The notes under the pieces were generated by a model. It worked only from the letters and a program-made list of their open reading frames with translations, ran no database searches and had not been told where the DNA came from. From positions 225,374-289,373 of the forward strand of contig NZ_WFLM01000003.1 of assembly GCF_009208775.1 (NCBI RefSeq): a stretch of 64,000 nucleotides of DNA, in the 5' to 3' direction. Made by a program: the position numbers and the translations under genes. This stretch comes from Silvanigrella paludirubra. GTDB lineage: Bacteria; Bdellovibrionota_B; Oligoflexia; Silvanigrellales; Silvanigrellaceae. Shown here in pieces: positions 48,800 to 61,333 of this stretch (the first letter of the stretch is position 1; each line of letters begins with the position of its first letter).

Positions 48800-50488
48800 T
48801 TAATTCTCCTTACTTAATATGGATAAAGCAATTTGTGAATCAGAAAATGGGTATTTTGTTTCACCAATAATTTGATAATCCTCATGACCTTTTCCTGCAA
48901 CAAGAATGAGATCAAATTGTTCAGCAGATTGGATTGCAAACTCAATTGCTTTTTTGCGGTCGCTCTCTCTAAAGCAATTATAATTGGAATTGATACCAGT
49001 AAAAATATCGTCAATAATTTTGCCAGGATCTTCTTTTCTTGGATTATCAGAAGTAACAATAACTTTATCTGATAAGGTTGAAGCAATTTTACCCATGATA
49101 GGTCTTTTTGTTTTATCTCTGTCACCACCACAGCCAAATACTGTTATTAGTTTTCCTCTTCCTTCTAATGAAAGTATGTTTTTACAAACTAATATCGCTT
49201 TTTCCAAAGCATCTGGTGAATGAGCATAATCAACAAGAACTGTCGGAAATTTATTATCAATTTCAGTTTTATGTTTTATAATTTCTAGTCTTCCTGGGAT
49301 GTTTTTTATATTTGCAAGTTTTTTTGAAATTTCACTAATTTTAAAGCCATCGTTAATCATAGCAGCTATTGAACACATGATATTGTCAAATTGAAAATTT
49401 CCTATAATAGGAGCGCTAAAATATTCCGATTCTATAATTTTATGACAATCTTTAAGAATTAAAGTTCCAGAAATTCCTTTTAAAGATGATTTTTGATCTG
49501 TAATAGATAAATATAATAACGATTTATACAAATTCTTAAATGTAGAAAAAAAAGATTTTGAAATATTTTCGTTTCCAACACCAATTAATGTTCTTTTATT
49601 TCTAGCTGCATGTTTAGCAAAAAACTCCCAATCAAAATTATTAGTACAAATAATAGCACAACCGCTTTCGTTTAAATATTCATCAAATAATTTTAATTTA
49701 GCATTCCTATAGTTTTCCATTGTTCCGTGATAGTCTAAATGATCTTGAGTTAAATTTGTAAAAATAGCGGTATTTACTTTCCAGTTGCCTAATCTTTTTT
49801 CAAGCAATCCATGTGAAGTTGCTTCCATAACTATTTTATCAATATTATTTTTTTTGCATAAATTTATTATACTCAATAAAGCTGGATAGTCAGGAGTTGT
49901 AACATGTGAAGATTCCATGCTATACTCGCCAATTTGTAATCCTAATGTGCCTATGCGTAAGCAACTTTTTGCTGTTAAAAGTTCAAAAATTTGAGAACAT
50001 AATTGAACCACAGAAGTTTTTCCGTTTGTTCCTGTTACAGCTATTGTATTAAAATGTTCATTATTTATTTGATAACATTTTTCAAATAATAAATTAATTG
50101 ATTTTTCTGTATTTTTTACTTTAATAAAATAAGGATTATTTATGATTTTTAACAACAAATCTTCAGAATAATTGTTTTTTTTTGCTAAATCTAATACATT
50201 TTCTTCATTTCCAATAAAATAGTTCTTAGAACTCAATATTTTTTCTATTAAGCTATGGCCATCAAATTTTTTTCCAACTCTAGCTATATATATAAATGAT
50301 TCTTCTTTTAATAAATCTTCATTAACTTTAAATTTTTTAAGTTCATTAGAGTTTATAATTATATCTAGAGGTGATTCTAACTTATTATTAATGGCAATAT
50401 CATTTACTAATAAATCCTCATTTTTTAAAACATAAATTGCATTTTCTAAAGTACATCTAGGTATTTCTATTTTATAATTAAAAGACAT
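48800..50488 (-). CDS. murE: UDP-MurNAc-tripeptide synthetase MurE (meso-DAP type)
   Basis: 562 residues, slightly longer than E. coli MurE (495). Seen: TGTNGKTSVV P-loop (about 151-160), HVTTPDYPALLS, NLTQDHLDYHGTM, GCGGDRDKTKRP and TSDNPRKEDP (about 478-487); the DNPR motif indicates meso-diaminopimelate as the added residue, as in Gram-negatives. The N-terminal UDP domain is divergent with Asn-rich stretches. Coupled to mraY by 5 bases. Confidence 0.96.
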   Translation of the reverse strand: MSFNYKIEIPRCTLENAIYVLKNEDLLVNDIAINNKLESPLDIIINSNELKKFKVNEDLLKEESFIYIARVGKKFDGHSLIEKILSSKNYFIGNEENVLDLAKKNNYSEDLLLKIINNPYFIKVKNTEKSINLLFEKCYQINNEHFNTIAVTGTNGKTSVVQLCSQIFELLTAKSCLRIGTLGLQIGEYSMESSHVTTPDYPALLSIINLCKKNNIDKIVMEATSHGLLEKRLGNWKVNTAIFTNLTQDHLDYHGTMENYRNAKLKLFDEYLNESGCAIICTNNFDWEFFAKHAARNKRTLIGVGNENISKSFFSTFKNLYKSLLYLSITDQKSSLKGISGTLILKDCHKIIESEYFSAPIIGNFQFDNIMCSIAAMINDGFKISEISKKLANIKNIPGRLEIIKHKTEIDNKFPTVLVDYAHSPDALEKAILVCKNILSLEGRGKLITVFGCGGDRDKTKRPIMGKIASTLSDKVIVTSDNPRKEDPGKIIDDIFTGINSNYNCFRESDRKKAIEFAIQSAEQFDLILVAGKGHEDYQIIGETKYPFSDSQIALSILSKEN

Positions 50489-50494
50489 TTTAAA

Positions 50495-52381
50495 TCATTG
50501 TTCCTTTTTTGTATCTGTTTCGTTATGATTGTTTGTCATAGCTGCGCTTTGTGGTTTATTATTATTAATTATATTAGGCTTATTTCTTTTTAAATATGCA
50601 TTTTCATATGGTTTGACATCAAAAATTCCTTGAGAATTTAAATATTGAACTGTTTTTTTCCCAATTTCCGCAAAAACAGGGCCAGCAAGAGGCCCCCCAT
50701 AAGCAGGTCTAATTCCAGCTTCATCAATAACAACTACAATAGCTAATTTTGGATCGTCAGAAGGAATGACTCCCTCAAAAACAGCAGTTCTGCCAGAATA
50801 AGAGTGTTCTTTTGATGACCAAATTTGAGCTGTTCCTGTTTTTCCAGAAACAAGAACACCTGGAATTCGAGCAGGAGATCCTGTTCCTCCTTCTTCTTCA
50901 ACAACGGATTCCATCATTTTAGAAATGAGTAAGCTTGTCTTTTGGGAAATATATTTTAAAGGAGGGCCTACAAAATTTTTTTGTCTTTTTTCGTCAACTG
51001 CAATTAAATTAACTCCATGATCAATGCCGCCACCAACAATAATGGATAATCCATGCACTAACTGCAAAGGAGAAATTGCAAAACCTTGGCCAAAAGCCAT
51101 ATTTGCAAAATTCATTTCTCTCCAAGTATTTAATGCTTTTATTCTACCAGACCATTCGCCAGGAAGTCCTGTGCCAGGTTGTCTTCCAAAACCAATTTTC
51201 ATTAATGAGTCATAAAAGTTTTCACGACCTATTTTTTGTACAACTTTATAAGCACCTATATTGCTACTTACTTTTAATATTTCTTCAGGAGTAATCCATC
51301 CATGTTCATGAGTGTCATGAATGATACCACCTGGTAATGACATTTGGCCATTTTCTGCATAAACTTTTGTTTCAGGCGTAATGACTTGAAGATCAAGTGC
51401 TTTAGAAATCCACATTGGTTTAACAACTGAGCCAAGTTCAATTGCATCCATTACAGGGCGTAAGCGTCTAGATGCGGGGTCATTTTCAGGTGGGTTATTT
51501 AAGTCATATGATGGATAACTTGCCATTGATAATATTTCACCCGTTTTAACATCCATAACGATAGCGCTACCGCCTTTTGCTTTTGCTTTAAGAACTCCAT
51601 CTTTAAGAGCATTTTGAGTGAATTCTTGAATGGATAAATCTATTGATAGAGTTAAATTTGGGGCTTTTTGATCTGGTTTAGAGGCATCATTTGGTGTAAC
51701 CATAACAAGTCTGCCTCTTGCATCTTTCATTACTTCTGATTTAATTGGTTTGATATTTAGTCTTGAATTATATATTTTTTCAATGCCTTCAAGTCCGTTA
51801 CCTTCAGAACCAACAAATCCAATTAATTGTGCCGCTAGATCTTTTTCTGGATAAACTCTTTTAGGTTCATCAACAACGCCAATAAATTCTTGCCATTTTT
51901 TTAGATTTCCAATTTTAATAAACTCGCTTTGATTCATTTGTCTTTTGAGCCAAATAAAATTTCTTTTATCATCTTTATAAGAAATTAATGTATCTAATGG
52001 AAAATGAATTTGTTCGGAAACTTTTTTTAAAGTGCTAATTTCTTCAGGCATTTTGTGTGTTAAAAGATAAATACTTGGTCTAGATATGCTAACAGCTAAA
52101 ACTCTTCCATTTCTATCTGTAATTGTAGCTCTTGGTTGTGCTAAAGTTAAATTAGTTTCAAATTGTCTTGTTCCAGTTGCTATTAATTTTGTTCTTAGTG
52201 GAGTAGGAAAAAAAGTTATCCATGCATATCTTACAAGAATAATACTTAAAAAAATGCAATAAATGATTCCCATTGTTTGGGCTCGAAACTTATAATTAGG
52301 TAATTTTTTGTTTTGTTTTGGGTCAAAATAATTTTTAAATTTAACTAATAAATTAACTTGTAAATTTATTTTATTTCCCAC
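50495..52381 (-). CDS. ftsI: Septal peptidoglycan transpeptidase FtsI (PBP3)
   Basis: 628 residues. One N-terminal membrane span (about 34-55), a pedestal domain, and the transpeptidase domain with SVVK (Ser about 317), SSN (about 371) and KTGT (about 511), the three catalytic motifs of PBPs. Also GSEGNGLEGIEK. C-terminal about 35 residues after YLNSQG are Asn/Lys-rich and may be disordered. Starts with GTG just 17 bases after ftsL. Confidence 0.97.
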   Translation of the reverse strand: MGNKINLQVNLLVKFKNYFDPKQNKKLPNYKFRAQTMGIIYCIFLSIILVRYAWITFFPTPLRTKLIATGTRQFETNLTLAQPRATITDRNGRVLAVSISRPSIYLLTHKMPEEISTLKKVSEQIHFPLDTLISYKDDKRNFIWLKRQMNQSEFIKIGNLKKWQEFIGVVDEPKRVYPEKDLAAQLIGFVGSEGNGLEGIEKIYNSRLNIKPIKSEVMKDARGRLVMVTPNDASKPDQKAPNLTLSIDLSIQEFTQNALKDGVLKAKAKGGSAIVMDVKTGEILSMASYPSYDLNNPPENDPASRRLRPVMDAIELGSVVKPMWISKALDLQVITPETKVYAENGQMSLPGGIIHDTHEHGWITPEEILKVSSNIGAYKVVQKIGRENFYDSLMKIGFGRQPGTGLPGEWSGRIKALNTWREMNFANMAFGQGFAISPLQLVHGLSIIVGGGIDHGVNLIAVDEKRQKNFVGPPLKYISQKTSLLISKMMESVVEEEGGTGSPARIPGVLVSGKTGTAQIWSSKEHSYSGRTAVFEGVIPSDDPKLAIVVVIDEAGIRPAYGGPLAGPVFAEIGKKTVQYLNSQGIFDVKPYENAYLKRNKPNIINNNKPQSAAMTNNHNETDTKKEQ

Positions 52382-52398
52382 TTTTGTTACCTTTTTAT

Positions 52399-52701
52399 TT
52401 AATGTAACCCTTTTTCTGCTCTTAATACACGTTTTGGATCTGGTAAAACATACTTATTAAGCTTGCCTGAAGGATCTTTTTGGGCAAGCAAATTGTCTCT
52501 AACATTTCTTTCTGTTGCAGCTAATTCAGATTGCAGCTCTACTTGTCTTTGTCTAAGTATTTTTTCCTTAGACTTTAAAGCAGCAATTTCATAACCAACA
52601 GAATAAGTTTTAGATCTCATTGTAATAACTATTATACCAACAATAATCGTTAAAAAAATAATTGCAATGATTGCATCAAATCCTTTTAAAAATTTTAGCA
52701 T
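52399..52701 (-). CDS. ftsL: FtsL-like divisome protein
   Basis: 100 residues: one membrane span (IAIIFLTIIVGIIVITM, about 12-28) followed by a coiled coil (about 35-75), the FtsL layout. Start at 52701, with GGGGG just upstream; translation starts one base past the rsmH stop. No sequence motif proves FtsL, but size, topology and place between rsmH and ftsI are right. Confidence 0.8.
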   Translation of the reverse strand: MLKFLKGFDAIIAIIFLTIIVGIIVITMRSKTYSVGYEIAALKSKEKILRQRQVELQSELAATERNVRDNLLAQKDPSGKLNKYVLPDPKRVLRAEKGLH

Positions 52702-52702
52702 G

Positions 52703-53776
52703 TTAGCCCCCTGTTTCTCTTGAGAACTCAAAACAACGAAGTCTTGCGGATCGAGAGCGATTGTTCATTTGGCATTCCTCATCGGAGGCGGTTATGCCTC
52801 CACGCGGTATTTCTTTGCCAAAACCTTTATTATGATTTTCTTCTAAATGAAGTTGAAGATGCAAGGGGATATTAAATTCTTTTTTTTCATTTTGTTTTTC
52901 GTGTGCTTTCTTTCCTTTTTGCCAATTTCTCATAGCATGTTTGATTAGTCTGTCTTCCAGGGAATGAAATGAGATAAAGCCTACTTTTCCATGAGTATGA
53001 ATAAGCTCAGGGATTTCTTGAAGAAGATAATTTATAGATTCTAATTCTTTGTTTACTTCAATCCTTAATGCTTGGAATGCTCTCGTGGCTGGGTGTACTC
53101 TGCTATTTGGATAGGCAAGTACTCTTTTTATATATTCAGCAAGCTGAATTGTACTATGAAGAGGTATTTTCTCAATTTTTCTATCCTGCACAATTGCTTT
53201 AGCAAGTTTTCTTGATTTAGGTTCTTCGCCATATTCAAAAAAGATACGAGTTAATTCTAATTCGGAATATTCTTCTAAAATGTTTTTAGCGGTTAAATTA
53301 TCATTGGGATTCATGCGCATATCAATAGGGCCATCATGAATTAAAGAAAAACCTCTTTTGCCAATATCTAGTTGTGGAGAACTAACACCAAAATCGGCAT
53401 ACAAGCCGTGAATTTTTTCACCAGGAAATTTTGTTTGCCAAATTTGTGCCAAATTTTTAAAATTTTCATTTTCGAAATGTAAATGAATATTTTTATACTT
53501 CAATTGAACATCTTTAAATTTTTTTTCAGTAAAGTTTAGTGCATTTATATCTTGATCAAAGCCAATAAAATTCAGTTCAAAATTATTAAATATAGGATCA
53601 TTAACGAATAAATGAATTAAATATTCAGCATGACCACCACCACCCAAAGTAGCATCTACAATATTTAATTTATATGTTTTATTTGTTTTTAATAAATTCA
53701 AAAGTTTTTCAGAAGGAAAAATATTTTGTATCGTTTCTTTCTTTAATACTGTTATATGATTAAATTCATTATTCAT
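52703..53776 (-). CDS. rsmH: 16S rRNA (cytosine-N4)-methyltransferase RsmH (MraW)
   Basis: 357 residues. Seen: HITVLKKETI at the start, VDATLGGGGHAEYL (SAM motif I), GFDQDINAL, LYADFGVSSPQLD and FSLIHDGPIDMRM, and FISFHSLEDRLIKH, all strong RsmH blocks. Methylates C1402 of 16S rRNA. Start at 53776 (AGAGGA 5 bases before). First gene of the dcw cluster; mraZ is not upstream. Confidence 0.97.
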   Translation of the reverse strand: MNNEFNHITVLKKETIQNIFPSEKLLNLLKTNKTYKLNIVDATLGGGGHAEYLIHLFVNDPIFNNFELNFIGFDQDINALNFTEKKFKDVQLKYKNIHLHFENENFKNLAQIWQTKFPGEKIHGLYADFGVSSPQLDIGKRGFSLIHDGPIDMRMNPNDNLTAKNILEEYSELELTRIFFEYGEEPKSRKLAKAIVQDRKIEKIPLHSTIQLAEYIKRVLAYPNSRVHPATRAFQALRIEVNKELESINYLLQEIPELIHTHGKVGFISFHSLEDRLIKHAMRNWQKGKKAHEKQNEKKEFNIPLHLQLHLEENHNKGFGKEIPRGGITASDEECQMNNRSRSARLRCFEFSRETGG

Positions 53777-53936
53777 TGATGTCCTCTTTGGCTTTAAAAC
53801 GAAGTATTTGTGTTTGTTTTTTAACATAAGTCAAAAACGTGGCACAATCATATGTGCCTAAAGCATTCAACTTCACTTTATCAAGTCCGATAATGGACTT
53901 GTAAAAGAAATTTACTGTTTGAGGATGAAATTTGCC

Positions 53937-54806
53937 ATGAAGAAAAATATTATGCAAAATATGGCGTCTATTTATAAAAAATTTAAATTTGTTCTATTAT
54001 GCTCATTCTTCTCATTATCCTTATTTGGATGTATGACGAGCTCTAAAAACGATGAAGACCAGTTGAATCAAGCTCAAAATCAAAAAGTTGAAGAACTTGT
54101 AAATAAGGAATCAGCTGACTTTGTAGAAGGTCTTGTTCCTCCAAGTAATCAAAATATTTTATTGCCTTATTATGTTCAAGCTGGTGATAACTTAGGTAAA
54201 ATATCCAAAAAAATATATGGTGATCTTAAAAGCTGGAAGAAAATTGCTGAAATAAATAAAATAGTAGATGCAAATAAAATTTATGCAGGAGATGTTATTT
54301 ACTATCAATTAGATGATAAAACAAAAATGTTTGCAGAAAAATATGAAAATGCTCCAAGAGCAAAAATTATAGTTAAAAAAGGTGATACACTTTCTCATAT
54401 TTCAAAGGCTGTTTTTGGTAGGTCTAAAGACTGGCGTGTATTATGGAAGGAAAACCCTCAAATAGCTAATCCTGATAGAATTAAAGAAGGAACGGCAGTT
54501 TATTTTAGACCTAAAGCACTAACTGCTGACGCTGGTGGATATAATATTATAAACAAAGAATCAGAATCTCAGCCTGTTAAAAATATAAATTTAAATGAGG
54601 ATACAAAAATTTCTAACGAAGAACCTATTAAACAAGATTTAAATGCTATAAATGATCAAAATAATACGGAACAAAAAGCAATTGATGTAAAACAAGATGC
54701 ATCAAAAAATGAATTAACAGAAGAAGAAAAAAATGCAATAAGAAAATCTTCTGAAAGTAATTTTGTAAATCCAGATGATATTCCTAAAAATCCGAAAGAT
54801 GATTGA
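53937..54806 (+). CDS. LysM-domain lipoprotein
   Basis: About 289 residues. N-terminal lipobox LSLFGC (Cys near 32), then two LysM domains: VQAGDNLGKISKKIYGD... (about 80-130) and VKKGDTLSHISKAVFGRSKD... (about 146-195), which bind peptidoglycan or chitin. The tail is Asn/Glu-rich and disordered. ATG at 53937 has GAGG about 12 bases before; a TTG at 53919 and other ATGs at 53925-53961 are possible. It is divergent from rsmH and ends before a large palindrome. Confidence 0.85.
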   Translation: MKKNIMQNMASIYKKFKFVLLCSFFSLSLFGCMTSSKNDEDQLNQAQNQKVEELVNKESADFVEGLVPPSNQNILLPYYVQAGDNLGKISKKIYGDLKSWKKIAEINKIVDANKIYAGDVIYYQLDDKTKMFAEKYENAPRAKIIVKKGDTLSHISKAVFGRSKDWRVLWKENPQIANPDRIKEGTAVYFRPKALTADAGGYNIINKESESQPVKNINLNEDTKISNEEPIKQDLNAINDQNNTEQKAIDVKQDASKNELTEEEKNAIRKSSESNFVNPDDIPKNPKDD

Positions 54807-54872
54807 TAAAAATTGAATTACATAATGCTCTATTTTATTAGATTCTATATCTTTAAAATTTATAAAATATAT

Positions 54873-54918
54873 ATTAAAATTAAAAATATCCATTGAAATG
54901 GATATTTTTAATTTTAAT
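54873..54918. terminator. 46-bp near-perfect palindrome between LysM gene and TspO-like gene
   Basis: Arms of 22 bases (54873-54894 and 54897-54918) are perfect inverted complements with only GA in the centre. The right arm contains a TTTTT stretch and is T-rich, so it can act as a terminator for the LysM gene. It lies 27 bases before the tspO-like start. Few other structures of this length and perfection occur in the window. Confidence 0.6.
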
Positions 54919-54945
54919 TACTTAAAGAAAGAGTAAATATTTATT

Positions 54946-55422
54946 ATGAAATTATTTAAAATTCAAGGAAATAAAAAAGGTCTAATAAAGCTTTTTATTT
55001 CAACTGCTTTAATAGTTATTTTTGTTAATAGTATTATATTTATATTTAATTTTAGAAACTCAAACACTAATTTAGGAATTGTTAGAAGTCCGTTCTTACC
55101 CGCTCCCTATATCATAGGAACAGTTTGGCTGTTTTTAATTTTATGCATGTCTTTTTCTCAATGGATCTTAATAAAAAAGAATACTCATAAAAATAAATTA
55201 TTTTTAATTCCAATTTTATTTATTATTTGTATTTTATATCCATTTTATACACAAAAATTTAATAATGAATCTATATCGCTTATTGCAAATTTAGTTGTTA
55301 TCTCTTATTCTTCTTTCATAAGTGGTAAAATATATAATATATCTAAAATCTCGTCTTTTTTAATATTTTTAACAGCAATTTGGGTTGCATTTGCAACTTA
55401 TGCAACAAATTTAAAATTTTAA
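54946..55422 (+). CDS. TspO/MBR-family tryptophan-rich membrane protein
   Basis: 158 residues with five membrane segments. Seen: SPFLPAPYIIGTVWLFLI, the family 'P-F-x-P-P-x-x-x-x-x-x-x-W' block, and the C-terminal WVAFATYATNLKF, near the usual end 'WxxFAxYLN'. TspO proteins bind tetrapyrroles and act in stress or redox sensing. No cobalamin or haem gene is adjacent. A and P replaced at some usual positions, so function may have drifted. Confidence 0.7.
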   Translation: MKLFKIQGNKKGLIKLFISTALIVIFVNSIIFIFNFRNSNTNLGIVRSPFLPAPYIIGTVWLFLILCMSFSQWILIKKNTHKNKLFLIPILFIICILYPFYTQKFNNESISLIANLVVISYSSFISGKIYNISKISSFLIFLTAIWVAFATYATNLKF

Positions 55423-55440
55423 AACAATCTTTTTTCAAAT

Positions 55441-55959
55441 TTATTTTTGTTTCATAGAATTTATTACAGGTTTTGAAATTAAATGATAATCAGCCAAAGC
55501 TTTTAATTCATCATTTTCATACATTGGCTCTGCTTTTGCGGAGGGGTTTATAATATGAAAATGAGTAATATGCTCATGTTCAAATTGTTTTCTTATATAT
55601 TGATATTCATCTACAAATCTTACATCATCAATAACAGCGATATCAAGTTTTAAACTGTCTCTATTATATTTTAATAAGTCTACAATTTGTTGAGCCCAAT
55701 ATAAATTGTTAACAGATTTTTTTTCATTACCTTTGTCATCAAGCATTTGATGAATTGTTTTTCCATTTTCTTTAAGAATAGTATTGTCTTTAAAGGAAGG
55801 TGATTTATTATACCAGTCATAATTTGGATATTCAATTGCAAGCTCTTTTCGTATTGTATTTGCTATTGAAAATATTTGCTGTTTATTACTTGCAATTTTT
55901 TTAGCTAAATAAGTTTTACCAGCACCATGTCCATCGCCAGAAATAAAAATGATTCTCAT
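55441..55959 (-). CDS. P-loop kinase, dNMP-kinase-like, copy 2
   Basis: 172 residues. Walker A GDGHGAGKTY (8-17), then IANTIRKEL and a DDVRFVDEYQYIRK block (about 112-125) similar to the 'DxRFxxE' LID/NMP-binding region of T4-type deoxynucleoside monophosphate kinases. Nearly the same start as copy 1 (MRIIFISGDGHGAGKTY). Likely phosphorylates a nucleotide or sugar-nucleotide; the substrate is not known. Last gene of the amgK-murU operon. Confidence 0.6.
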   Translation of the reverse strand: MRIIFISGDGHGAGKTYLAKKIASNKQQIFSIANTIRKELAIEYPNYDWYNKSPSFKDNTILKENGKTIHQMLDDKGNEKKSVNNLYWAQQIVDLLKYNRDSLKLDIAVIDDVRFVDEYQYIRKQFEHEHITHFHIINPSAKAEPMYENDELKALADYHLISKPVINSMKQK

Positions 55960-56000
55960 AGTTTCTCCATAAATTTAAAAAGTCTTGCTTTAATGAAATA

Positions 56001-56534
56001 TCACTCTTTTTTTTCTAATTTAAGATTTCTCACATTGAGAATTCTTTTAGATATTATTTGGAAATCAGATATTTCTTTTAATTTTTCATTTTCATAATTA
56101 GGTTCAGGTTTTGCATGTGGATTAATAATATGAATATGAGTAATTTGATCATTTTGTAAGTATCTTTTAATAAATTCAAACTCATCTAAATATCTAAGAT
56201 CGTCAATAATAGCAATTTTAAGGTCTAAAAATTCTTTATTATACAAAATAATTTCAACTAATTGTTTAGCCCAATATATATTATTTTTTTTCTTCTTTTC
56301 GTTACCTTTATTTATAAGCATTTGATGTATAGATAAATTTGTTTCTTTAACATTTGTATAAATTTTATATCTCGGGTCTTTATTGTACCAATCATAATTA
56401 GGGTATTCAGCTGCAAGTTCTTTTCTGATCATGTTAGCAATCGAAAATATTTGGCTTTTATCACTAGCTATCTTGTTTGCAAAATAGGTTTTACCCGCTC
56501 CATGTCCATCTCCTGAAATAAAAATGATTCTCAT
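56001..56534 (-). CDS. P-loop kinase, dNMP-kinase-like, copy 1
   Basis: 177 residues. Starts at 56534 (GGAG 5 bases before). Walker A GDGHGAGKTY, then FSIANMIRKEL, DDLRYLDEFEFI and HIHIINPHAKPEPNYENE. Closely related to copy 2 along the whole length, so a tandem duplication; the middle (KDPRYKIYTNVKETN vs KSPSFKDNTILKENG) differs most. Follows murU with about 25 bases between. Function in cell-wall recycling or nucleotide salvage is only inferred from position. Confidence 0.6.
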   Translation of the reverse strand: MRIIFISGDGHGAGKTYFANKIASDKSQIFSIANMIRKELAAEYPNYDWYNKDPRYKIYTNVKETNLSIHQMLINKGNEKKKKNNIYWAKQLVEIILYNKEFLDLKIAIIDDLRYLDEFEFIKRYLQNDQITHIHIINPHAKPEPNYENEKLKEISDFQIISKRILNVRNLKLEKKE

Positions 56535-56560
56535 TGATTCTCCACAAAAATTCATTTCAT

Positions 56561-57565
56561 TTAAAATATTATATAGAAATTTTCAGAATCATTATTTATT
56601 TCTTTTAAAGCTAATATTTTATTATCTTTAATTCTATCTCTAAAACCAATAAGTATTTTTTTACTATTTATTTTATGATTATTTATTTCATCATTTCTGG
56701 ATTCTATATATTTTTTTAAAGAATCTGGTTTTATAAAACAATAGTTAATTACATTTCCATTGTAAATATCAATACTATGATCTTTCTTTAATTTCTTTTC
56801 AAAAAACTCAATACATTCAAGGTATGTTTGTGGGGTTCCAATATCAAACCAATAACTTTCTTTAGGGTATGAATAATTTAAAATATTTTTACCAAGTAAA
56901 AATATTTTTTTGTAATATATTTCTATACTGGATTTTTTTTCAACTTCTACAATATTTAAAAGATCTTTAGAAATGATTTGATGAGTAGTAAAAACTTTTG
57001 CTATAGCATTTTCATTTGGTTTAAAATTGCTACCAAATCCTAAGACATAATTATTATTATGGGAAACCCATGTGGCATCTTTTCTTATATTATCCGTGTC
57101 ATGAGTGCACATTAATGCCCAATCATCTGAATTTTTATTTTTCCATTTATTTATCATATTTTCTAGGGGAAAATCAGCTGCGATATCTCCAGAGACAACA
57201 ATAGCATCTTTGCCAATATTGTCATTTTCATTTTTTGTTATTTCATGGTAAATACGAGCAATACCGCCACCTGTTTCTAAAATATCTTCTTCATGCCAAA
57301 AAATAATTTGGTTTGGATCGTATCCAAAATACTTAGCAGCTTCAATTATTTCTTGTTGCACTTCTTTTGCTAAATAATGAGTATTACAATGAACTTTTTT
57401 AAATCCAGCTTTTAAAAATATTTCAATACTTAAAAAAGCAACTGGTTTATTAATTATTGGACAAACAACTTTTGGAATAAAATTTGTTAAAGGTTTGAGT
57501 CTTGTGCCAAATCCAGCGCATAATACTATTGGTATAAAACTATCGAGATCGTTTTTATCTAACAT
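56561..57565 (-). CDS. murU: MurU-like nucleotidyltransferase (MurNAc-1-P uridylyltransferase)
   Basis: 334 residues, a nucleotidyltransferase: VLCAGFGTRLKPLTNFIPKV (nucleotide loop, about 14-33), VVCPIINKPVAF, EEDILETGGGIA (MurU-like), VVSGDIAADF, and YWFDIGTPQTYLE (metal and sugar site). MurU makes UDP-MurNAc from MurNAc-alpha-1-P, bypassing de novo synthesis. The adjacent kinase gene is of the AmgK type, the known partner. C-terminal 70 residues are extra to typical MurU (about 225). Call is strong for family, moderate for substrate. Confidence 0.8.
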   Translation of the reverse strand: MLDKNDLDSFIPIVLCAGFGTRLKPLTNFIPKVVCPIINKPVAFLSIEIFLKAGFKKVHCNTHYLAKEVQQEIIEAAKYFGYDPNQIIFWHEEDILETGGGIARIYHEITKNENDNIGKDAIVVSGDIAADFPLENMINKWKNKNSDDWALMCTHDTDNIRKDATWVSHNNNYVLGFGSNFKPNENAIAKVFTTHQIISKDLLNIVEVEKKSSIEIYYKKIFLLGKNILNYSYPKESYWFDIGTPQTYLECIEFFEKKLKKDHSIDIYNGNVINYCFIKPDSLKKYIESRNDEINNHKINSKKILIGFRDRIKDNKILALKEINNDSENFYIIF

Positions 57566-58723: not shown

Positions 58724-58846
58724 TTTGTTTCCTTAAACAAGAACTGAGATGTATACAAAAGAAGCCATTTGCTTTAGCAAGTGATCTCTATAGATAATTG
58801 TGGTATATATGCATGTATTTCGTCAACCCTTCGGAAAGGTTTCGTT

Positions 58847-61333
58847 GTGGCGTTTATTTCTGTACGTGGTGCTCAAGAACATAATTTAAAAAATATTGAT
58901 GTTGATATCCCTAAAAACTCACTAGTTACTTTTACAGGTGTAAGTGGTTCAGGCAAAAGCAGTTTGGTTTTTGACACTATTTATTCTGAAGCTTTTAGAC
59001 GCTTTGTTGATTCCAGTCAAACCCCAATTTATGTTATGGGAGGCTCTAGTTGGTCTAAAATGTCACGACCACGCTTTCGATCCATTACAGGGCTACCGCC
59101 TGCGCTAGGTCTTTCCCAAAAACAAGGTGTAGCTGGAAAGCTTTCTACCGTTGGAACAATTTCTGGTGTTTCCGATTTATTCAGAGTTTATTTTGCTGCG
59201 TTTGGTGATATTTTTTGTCATAAATGCGATATTCCATTAAAATCAATTTCTTTTTCTGATTTATCTAAAAAAATATTTGAAGATTTTAATGCAAAAAAAA
59301 TAATGATAATTGCTCCTATATGTGAAAAAAGAAAGGGAGCATTTATAGATGAAATTGAAAAATTTAAAGAATTAGGATTTTCTAAACTTCGAGTTAATGG
59401 AGATATTTTTGATCTTCAAGATGAAAATATAAAAATAAAAATTGATCCTAAAAAATTAAATACAATAGATGTTATAATTGATTATGTTTCTATTTTAATT
59501 GAAAAAAAACAAAGAATTGAAAGAGCATTATTTCAGGCTCTCGAATATGGAAAAGGTATAGTTAAAATAGAATATCTTTCTAAAGAATTTAAATTTAATA
59601 CAAAATCTAACTGCCCCCAGTGTGGAGAAAGTGCTCCTAAGTTAGATCCTCGTTACTTTAGTCATTCCTCGTTAGGTAAGTGTATTAAATGCGAGGGAGA
59701 AGGTTCTTTTAAAAAAGGATATCCAGCAGATTTATTTCCTTGCAAACAATGTCATGGTGGAAGATTAGATCCCTCAACTCCTATTGTAAGGGTTAAAGGA
59801 AAAACATTTATTGAGACTCATTTATATAATATCAAAGAGCTTTATCAATTTATAATTTCTGATTTTAAAGAGCATGTTCAAAATGATAAATCAAAAATAA
59901 AAGTTTATTCTGAAATCTCTCGCGCTCTTTTAAGTATGAATCGTTTGGGTTTAGGACATTTAATTTTAAATCGATCTGGAGCTAGCTTGTCACCGGGTGA
60001 TCTCCAAAGACTTAGACTTTCAACAATGATTTCAAATAAATTAACAGGTGTTTTGTATATTATTGATGAGCCATGTCAAGGATTAACGAAACAAGAAGTC
60101 AAGCAACTAGCTTCCGTTCTTCAAGAAATTGTAAAAGATGGCGCAACTGTAATTTCGGTTGAACATCACCCCGTTTTTCTTTCTTTTTGTGAGATCTTAT
60201 TTTTAATGGGCCCGGGCGCAGGTGTGCATGGTGGACAAGTTGTTGCCAAAGCCACTGCCCTGGAGGATTTGGATGTATTTCTTGAGAATCCGCAAACGAA
60301 ATTAAATAAAACCAAGTTTGCGCCTCAATCGTTATTGTTGGAGAAAGCGCCAAAGCTACCCAAGGCGAATTCAAAAAAGAAAAGTCCTGAGTCTTTTTCA
60401 ACTAAAACCTCCGTTTTATCAAAGTCTTCTATGTTGTTTTCGGACTTTCAAGTAAGAAACTTGATTGGCAAAACAATACAGATAAATCATGGTGTTATAA
60501 CGATAATTCGGGGGGCTTCGGGGGTAGGGAAGTCTTCATTTATTGAATTGTGCTTGCTACCTGCATTATATTCACTAGGAGGAAAAAATCCTGATGCAGA
60601 AGATGAAATTGAAATTCCATTTAAAGAATTTTGTAAATTTAATGTAACAAATGATTTTGAAGTGAATGTTGTTGGTTACGTTAAACCTGGGAGTGTAACA
60701 AGAAGTTCTAGAAGAAGTGTTGCCTCTGCTCTTGATGTGATTAAGCCATTAAGAGAATTATTTACAAAATTACCTACAAGCCAAGTGATGGGTTTAACGG
60801 AAAGTCATTTTTCTTGGAATTCAAAATTAGGACGTTGTGATCATTGTGAAGGAAAAGGATATATTGAACTTCCTCAAAGATACTCAGAACCTGTTCGTGT
60901 GGAATGTGAAGTTTGTATCGGTGCTAAATTAAATTCAAGAAGTTTGTTACCTAGATTTAAAGGATATAATTTAGCAGATGTAATGAATTTTACTTTAGAA
61001 CAGTCATTAGATATTTTTGAAAATCATAAAATAATTGCAAATCGAATTATACGAGCATGTCAATTTGGATTAGGATATATTCAGCTTGGGCAAGGAATGG
61101 ATTCACTAAGTGGTGGAGAATTACAACGATTAAATTTAACCATTGAATTAAAACGCTCAAACCTTGATGGTGCTTGGTTTATTTTGACACATCCAAGCAC
61201 TGGATTGCATGGCCCAGATATTTCGATATTAGGTGAACTTATGAAAGTGATGACTGAGCGTGGAGCTACTTTTATTTTAATAGAAAACCGTGAAGAGTTT
61301 TTGCCTTTTGCAGATAAAGTGATTGAATTTTAA
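58847..61333 (+). CDS. UvrA-like ABC ATPase lacking insertion domain and second catalytic site
   Basis: 828 residues (UvrA is about 940). NBD1: GVSGSGKSS (about 30), signature LSPGD (usual LSGGE, about 381), Walker B LYIIDEPCQGL (about 404). NBD2: GASGVGKSS (about 555), LSGGELQRL (about 754), but Walker B reads FILTHPSTGL, replacing Asp-Glu with Thr-His, and the H-loop reads IEN instead of IEH. Zinc sites CPQCG, GKCIKC, PCKQC and GRCDHC, VECEVC are kept. The insertion domain between the CIKCEGEG and PCKQC pairs, about 110 residues in UvrA, is down to about 14. A UvrB-binding-like region is present. Starts at GTG 58847 after AAAGG. Repair or other role unknown. Confidence 0.85.
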   Translation: MAFISVRGAQEHNLKNIDVDIPKNSLVTFTGVSGSGKSSLVFDTIYSEAFRRFVDSSQTPIYVMGGSSWSKMSRPRFRSITGLPPALGLSQKQGVAGKLSTVGTISGVSDLFRVYFAAFGDIFCHKCDIPLKSISFSDLSKKIFEDFNAKKIMIIAPICEKRKGAFIDEIEKFKELGFSKLRVNGDIFDLQDENIKIKIDPKKLNTIDVIIDYVSILIEKKQRIERALFQALEYGKGIVKIEYLSKEFKFNTKSNCPQCGESAPKLDPRYFSHSSLGKCIKCEGEGSFKKGYPADLFPCKQCHGGRLDPSTPIVRVKGKTFIETHLYNIKELYQFIISDFKEHVQNDKSKIKVYSEISRALLSMNRLGLGHLILNRSGASLSPGDLQRLRLSTMISNKLTGVLYIIDEPCQGLTKQEVKQLASVLQEIVKDGATVISVEHHPVFLSFCEILFLMGPGAGVHGGQVVAKATALEDLDVFLENPQTKLNKTKFAPQSLLLEKAPKLPKANSKKKSPESFSTKTSVLSKSSMLFSDFQVRNLIGKTIQINHGVITIIRGASGVGKSSFIELCLLPALYSLGGKNPDAEDEIEIPFKEFCKFNVTNDFEVNVVGYVKPGSVTRSSRRSVASALDVIKPLRELFTKLPTSQVMGLTESHFSWNSKLGRCDHCEGKGYIELPQRYSEPVRVECEVCIGAKLNSRSLLPRFKGYNLADVMNFTLEQSLDIFENHKIIANRIIRACQFGLGYIQLGQGMDSLSGGELQRLNLTIELKRSNLDGAWFILTHPSTGLHGPDISILGELMKVMTERGATFILIENREEFLPFADKVIEF

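Follow-up and report, generated by a model that had tools for sequence, protein, structure and literature searches.

A UvrA-like protein of Silvanigrella paludirubra with no insertion domain and a degenerate distal ATP site: a candidate subunit of a split UvrA

UvrA of nucleotide excision repair (NER) is commonly regarded as a symmetric homodimer. There is disagreement over the stoichiometry of the sensor, with UvrA2B2 and UvrA2B1 both given in the available part of PMC7835731. The ATP sites are composite: as laid out in the excerpted sections of PMC6486640, the proximal site is formed by ATP-binding domain I (the Walker motifs of NBD1) and signature II, and the distal site by ATP-binding domain II (the Walker motifs of NBD2) and signature I. 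According to excerpts of PMC7835731, PMC6486640 and PMC3025350, the proximal site of the standard UvrA governs the interaction with UvrB and DNA, and the distal site serves, together with the insertion domain (ID), damage discrimination.

Standard (class I) UvrA, for example PDB 2r6f, 3uwx and 3pih, has the insertion domain and catalytic residues at both ATP sites; the protein described here lacks the former and has a degenerate distal site. UvrA2, or class II UvrA (D. radiodurans UvrA2, 2vf7; Ecm16, 7sh1), is likewise a UvrA paralog of reduced size, but it keeps the insertion domain and drops the UvrB-binding domain, which is the reverse of our protein. For Ecm16, the excerpt of PMC10192343 describes a protein without the UvrB domain whose DNA binding depends on the insertion domain. 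The likeness is closer to the C half of the double UvrAs (NCBIfam NF001885/PRK00635 type), where the UvrB-binding domain is kept and the insertion domain is reduced. However, the C half is always fused in one chain with a UvrA module that has the insertion domain (ID+), whereas our protein is encoded by a stand-alone gene, and the distal ATP site, degenerate in our protein, is intact in the C halves examined save for single substitutions. No description of a split arrangement of ID+ and insertion-domain-free (ID-) UvrAs was found in the open-licence PMC literature.

The window analysed is a stretch of 64,000 nucleotides from the genome of S. paludirubra. The initial annotation had placed a uvrA paralog at 58847-61333 of the + strand, and these coordinates proved correct for an ORF with a GTG start. 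A second in-frame GTG is located 66 bases upstream of 58847, and the N-termini of relatives line up with 58847. The nearest named relative is Spirobacillus cienkowskii (L039), a member of the order Silvanigrellales, and its protein is identical to that of L013 from the genus of our strain. Below, the ID- rows of this order are referred to as clade A (n = 14, including L039 with the same sequence as L013), and the ID- rows of the same class as clade B (n = 19, the truncated L037 being left out). The features of the gene are as follows.

58847..61333, +, uvrA-like gene, 828 aa, GTG start, with GGAAAGG upstream at 58833-58839 (seen in the sequence)
58937..58963, +, NBD1 Walker A GVSGSGKSS (proximal site), intact; K and S in 14/14 clade-A rows
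59216..59227, +, zinc module 1 pair CHKC (motif in the alignment)
59255..59575, +, UvrB-binding domain, Pfam UvrA_inter, residues 137-243 (1.3e-21, 77 bits, cut-off 23.3)
59612..59692, +, zinc module 2, CPQC ... CIKC (motif in the alignment)
59705..59740, +, 12-residue stump at the position of the insertion domain (alignment; no match to UvrA_DNA-bind, PF17755, in the Pfam search)
59741..59752, +, closing CKQC pair after the missing insertion domain (motif in the alignment)
59987..60001, +, NBD1 signature LSPGD (distal site), degenerate; Gly to Pro in 14/14 and Glu to Asp in 13/14 clade-A rows
60065..60070, +, NBD1 Walker B Asp-Glu (DEP; proximal site), intact (alignment, clade-A counts)
60164..60166, +, NBD1 H-loop His (proximal site), intact (alignment, clade-A counts)
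60512..60538, +, NBD2 Walker A GASGVGKSS (distal site), kept here; Ser replaced by Gly or Ala in 6/14 clade-A rows
60836..60916, +, zinc module 3 (CDHC ... CEVC) in signature domain II (motif in the alignment)
61106..61120, +, NBD2 signature LSGGE (proximal site), intact; 14/14 in clade A
61187..61192, +, Thr781-His782 in place of the NBD2 Walker B Asp-Glu (distal site); Asp lost in 14/14 and Glu to His in 14/14 clade-A rows
61286..61288, +, Asn814 in place of the NBD2 H-loop His (distal site); His to Asn in 14/14 clade-A rows

In profile searches, the window protein matched TIGR00630 (2.4e-168, 562.1 bits), NF001503 (552.2 bits) and the double-UvrA family NF001885 (344.7 bits), each time below the family cut-off (729.8, 1147 and 3054, respectively). 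The alignment with solved UvrAs covers most of the protein, the insertion domain excepted, and the two NBDs, the zinc modules and the overall UvrA fold are all present. Structural prediction, which the initial annotation had named as a check, returned the UvrA fold: the AlphaFold model, based on 33 aligned rows (pLDDT 84.3, pTM 0.80), has chain A of 3uwx, a UvrA-UvrB complex, as its top PDB match, with a TM score of 0.73 by query length. The insertion domain, usually of about 120 residues, had been described as shortened to about 14 residues between CxxC pairs; its loss was upheld, and the length of the remainder is 12 residues. The UvrB-binding-like sequence and the zinc motifs do survive, as had been claimed, with the UvrA_inter match listed above and all CxxC pairs complete. 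An HMM of the UvrB-binding domain, which was built from 15 standard rows, gave the window protein 62.3 bits. The opposite pattern to UvrA2, also pointed out beforehand, was confirmed, since only 0-2 residues of the UvrB-binding domain remain in 9/9 rows of UvrA2-type proteins. The window protein as a UvrA2 or resistance ATPase was rejected because of this reversal, in which the UvrB-binding domain is present and the insertion domain is missing.

Given the composite nature of the sites, LSPGD, Thr-His and Asn all affect the distal site and leave the proximal one intact. The motif readings of the initial annotation, namely Walker A and LSGGE kept in NBD2, Thr-His at its Walker B, Asn at its H-loop and LSPGD in NBD1, agree with the alignment, and the Thr-His and Asn changes recur in clade A together with Gly to Pro in signature I. 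Its phrase "dead second ATPase site" was apt for the lost catalytic residues of NBD2, but what is lost is the distal composite site, including the signature of NBD1. Since the same changes recur in 14/14 clade-A rows, the losses are not a matter of chance. The proximal residues of clade A (Lys/Ser of Walker A1, Asp/Glu of Walker B1, His of H-loop 1 and SGGE of signature II) are intact in 14/14 rows. In clade B, the proximal residues are unchanged in 19/19 rows, and the distal ones deviate in signature I (7/19), in Walker A2, to Asn (3/19), in the Walker B2 Asp (2/19) and in the H-loop (3/19). The counts in both clades thus indicate that the distal site is relaxed in the ID- family as a whole, and fully so in the order of the window. 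Judging by these residues, distal ATP hydrolysis is presumably lost in the window protein. CFTR and TAP are asymmetric ABC proteins with one degenerate site. They resemble the window protein in that one composite site is catalytic and the other is degenerate in its Walker and signature parts; they are membrane transporters, whereas here the site pair sits in a DNA-repair subunit.

The loss of catalytic residues could also suggest that the gene is a decaying, functionless duplicate, which we regard as extremely improbable. The frame is open, the losses are identical across the order, and the position of the gene is conserved in 11 loci of the order and in L039. Neither frameshifts nor neutral dN/dS were seen as signs of decay. 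The dN/dS of NBD2 was 0.049, 0.060 and 0.086 in three close pairs (0.05-0.09 when rounded), dS being near saturation in several pairs, and 0.19 in one more distant pair. NBD2 is under purifying selection despite the lost catalytic residues, and gene decay was rejected on this basis.

The genome contains one other UvrA gene, L038 (G000:C4:47798-50599, 940-aa frame), so the window gene is not its only uvrA. L038 lies on the same contig, about 175 kb before the start of the window, and the two genes are not adjacent. It has the insertion domain (UvrA_DNA-bind, 51.2 bits) and keeps all ATP motifs, and its UvrA_inter score of 16.7 bits is below the cut-off of 23.3. Its length and insertion domain suggested a canonical uvrA, which was dropped after the trees, the identity and the AU test: L038 is placed in a separate clade of ID+ partners with support of 99/96 in the mixture-model tree, is 32% identical to the standard UvrA found in G009, a member of the family, and a grouping of the partners from outside the order with the standard UvrA was rejected (p-AU 0.000316, 34-row AU test). 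The ATP-site residues are intact in 23/23 partner rows. No standard uvrA was found in the genome in a search at E 1e-60 with at least 60% identity to L121 as the definition. Thus, the window gene is UvrA-like, as had been annotated, but the implied picture of a supplementary copy next to a canonical uvrA was not supported: the second gene to be searched for turned out to be a diverged ID+ type with a degenerate UvrB-binding domain. The uvrB (1026 bits), uvrC (466 bits) and mfd (966 bits) genes are present in the genome, all above family cut-offs.

In our estimation, it is rather probable that the window gene and L038 each encode one of the two subunits of a split, asymmetric UvrA of NER. Recognition of DNA damage would fall to the L038-type subunit, which has the insertion domain and both ATP sites. 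The window subunit has the zinc modules, the better-kept of the two UvrB-binding domains and, of the ATP sites, only the proximal one; it would dock and load UvrB, in line with the role of the proximal site in the standard UvrA. We infer the physical heterodimer, the division of labour and NER by the pair from sequence comparison.

Both types depart from the standard UvrB-binding domain in a complementary manner. With the above HMM, clade A scored 48.9-74.9 bits (14 rows), clade B 38.6-93.3 bits (19 rows; L037, excluded, scored -2.6) and the partners 4.9-60.5 bits (n = 23), with 4.9-22.4 bits in ten partners from the order of the window, vs 148-203 bits in standard UvrA. The halves of double UvrAs scored 7.2-35.9 bits (N) and 35.6-71.7 bits (C). 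The comparison within genomes covered 42 of the 46 two-type genomes, those with both genes full enough, and the ID- member outscored its partner in 42/42 full-length pairs, the narrowest gap being 2.3 bits in G022. The Gly of the K[KR]G turn is kept in clade A (14/14), clade B (19/19) and C halves (12/13), and is found in 0/23 partners and 0/12 N halves. The Arg of the "DR" motif has the opposite distribution: it is kept in 22/23 partners and 12/12 N halves, and in only 2/14 rows of clade A, 0/19 of clade B and 1/13 C halves, being lost in the window protein as well. This Arg is presumably Gst R206, or E. coli R216, a residue of the surface contacting UvrB, with the numbering offset checked against K37 only. 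By the opposite patterns of Gly and Arg, neither subunit retains the whole standard UvrB-binding surface. The ID- subunit would be the UvrB-loading one on the grounds of overall conservation, and the DR-Arg pattern runs counter to this.

The presence of every ATP motif in L038 and the DR-motif Arg in its relatives would also suit a homodimer of the L038 type carrying out NER, with the window protein as a damage-blind UvrA that serves Mfd-dependent transcription-coupled repair or moderates UvrB loading. We consider this unlikely, though it deserves attention. The mfd gene is present, and the available part of PMC3025350 reports that in E. coli UvrA without the insertion domain, global repair is hit harder than transcription-coupled repair. 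However, the UvrB domain of the ID+ type is degenerate, as seen from the scores of the ten members of the order against those of standard UvrA.

The distribution of both types was assessed in a sample of 56 genomes, where absence means not found among the matches listed or at E 1e-60. Among the matches listed, the ID- type occurred in 53/56 genomes, the ID+ partner in 49/56 and both in 46/56, and 33 of the 46 two-type genomes had no standard UvrA. For genomes at least 90% complete (n = 39), the respective numbers among the matches listed were 38 (ID-), 34 (partner), 33 (both) and 24 (both, no standard UvrA). Standard UvrA was detected at E 1e-60 in 15/56 genomes and in 1/15 members of the order of the window. 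The partner alone was seen in three genomes (G035, G040 and G041, among the matches listed), which favours a homodimer of the L038 type. The ID- type with no recognised partner was seen in seven (G020, G027, G032, G043, G046, G048 and G055, among the matches listed); some of the single-type genomes are rated 90% complete or better, and this incomplete pairing counts against the split UvrA.

The latter seven genomes fit the idea that the window protein is a homodimeric, ID-free main damage sensor, its specificity having moved to zinc module 3 or to UvrB, and in vitro activity has been reported for Gst UvrA lacking the insertion domain (as cited in the available part of PMC3025350). We find this improbable, because the distal site is lost and a partner is found in all 15 members of the order, as a fragment in G001.

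A further split pair outside these clades was found in one Bdellovibrionales genome: L040 has no insertion domain and a UvrB domain of 96.5 bits, and L216 has an insertion domain of 102 residues and a UvrB domain of 16.6 bits. Several other UvrA-like genes were noted. L269 and L270 (904 and 814 aa, in G027 and G032, which also carry an ID- UvrA) are of ambiguous type, with no clear insertion domain and no standard UvrB domain. Two distinct clade-B ID- UvrAs, L026 and L243, occur within G042, and the UvrA2-like ORF L145 (849-aa frame) is the fourth UvrA of G054.

Two types joined in a single chain are a classic hint of interaction between their separate versions. The double UvrAs of about 1,760-2,060 aa, seen in Betaproteobacteria, a Chlamydiia, a Verrucomicrobiia and a Thermosulfurimonas record, have an insertion domain of 102-113 residues in the N halves (12/12 rows) and 6-41 residues at its position in the C halves (13/13 rows). 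The same ID+/ID- pairing within one chain speaks against separate roles for L038 and the window protein and is consistent with a split UvrA. In the Chlamydiia and Thermosulfurimonas records, no UvrA other than the double UvrA was found. The Verrucomicrobiia record and six beta- and gammaproteobacterial genomes (G063, G064, G065, G067, G068 and G069) have a standard UvrA as well; the double-UvrA match is broken into two segments in G065 and G068. For G070, the matches listed included no standard UvrA. A second kind of double UvrA (L080, L091 and L110) has an insertion domain of 130 residues in both halves and has mostly lost the UvrB-binding domain. In a Planctomycetota record (G060), a 2016-aa frame (L213 and L224) contains two UvrAs, both with the insertion domain, and the ID- UvrA L045 is carried beside it.

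Phylogenetic analysis was based on a 68-row tree (68 of 124 rows) and a 34-row tree (34 of the 68). The input omitted L002-L004, L014, L027, L085, L106, L154, the shorter ORF of L096 and the repeat loci L159-L178; L102 was excluded for having too few Walker motifs, only the C part of L048 was entered, and a named subset represented the double UvrAs. The partners and N halves formed one side of a branch in both trees, with support of 97/87 (68 rows) and 94/89 (34 rows). In the 34-row tree, from which clade A was left out, clade B lay with the C halves and L041 on one side of a branch (89/97), and clades A and B, C halves and L041 grouped in just 24% of bootstraps of the 68-row tree. FastTree, run without a mixture model, kept the ID+ partners apart from the N halves, whereas the mixture-model trees joined them; our conclusions rest on the latter, at the supports stated.

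The two types also covary in evolutionary rate. Mirror trees of the ID- type and the partner in 41 of the 42 genomes with full-length pairs gave r 0.988, the partial correlation given UvrB being 0.955, a level reached by 0/2000 permutations. The partial r was 0.582 within the order alone and 0.887 in the remaining genomes. The order-to-rest distance was about 2x the within-rest distance for both types (4.25 vs 2.12 and 4.87 vs 2.20) and 1.5x for UvrB (1.68 vs 1.13). In the control with standard UvrA (12 genomes), the correlations were 0.943 for ID-/partner and -0.291 for ID-/standard, and without G009 they became 0.918 and 0.772, so that a clear separation depends on G009. Such covariation argues against separate roles of the two types, but it may be taken as supportive and not as proof because label permutation leaves the shared ancestry in.

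The window gene is flanked by a divergent kinase-like gene and a TPR-like one (named from reading of the translations) in 11 loci of the order (L159-L169) and in L039, and this neighbourhood was shared by 0/9 of the clade-B loci L170-L178. Its stability across the order, with no biosynthetic cluster apparent among the listed ORFs beside the gene (reading of translations), bears on a role outside NER, as a drug-resistance or other DNA-binding ABC ATPase comparable to the class II UvrA Ecm16. Although UvrA relatives acting in self-resistance are known (available part of PMC10192343) and one ATP site of the window protein is degenerate, we hold such a role to be quite improbable: Ecm16, as described in that part, is the reverse of the window protein in its domains, and the ID- type is near-universal in the class sample, at the count among the matches listed given above.

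Two further observations concern the same window. At 48800-57565, murE-, ftsI- and mraW-like cell-wall genes lie beside a nucleotidyltransferase-like gene (reading of translations), an arrangement retained across the loci of the order. On the - strand at 55441-56555, two paralogous P-loop ORFs (172 and 184 aa) lie in tandem and begin almost identically; L159 and L160 each have one ORF that matches both of them at 59-62%.

There are, in our view, about equal grounds for accepting and for doubting a wider proposal. It states that in Silvanigrellales and much of the class sampled an obligate ID+/ID- heterodimer replaced the homodimeric UvrA, that the knock-out of the distal site was fixed in the order, and that the same pair is fused as the double UvrA in other phyla, where it is the only UvrA found in two records. 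If the split UvrA is real, a sensor that has a single insertion domain, two UvrB domains that are not equal, and three rather than four working ATP sites would make the roles of these parts separable without artificial mixed dimers, and the insertion-less halves of double UvrAs would be explained. Annotations of a "second uvrA" may therefore conceal half of the main repair sensor.
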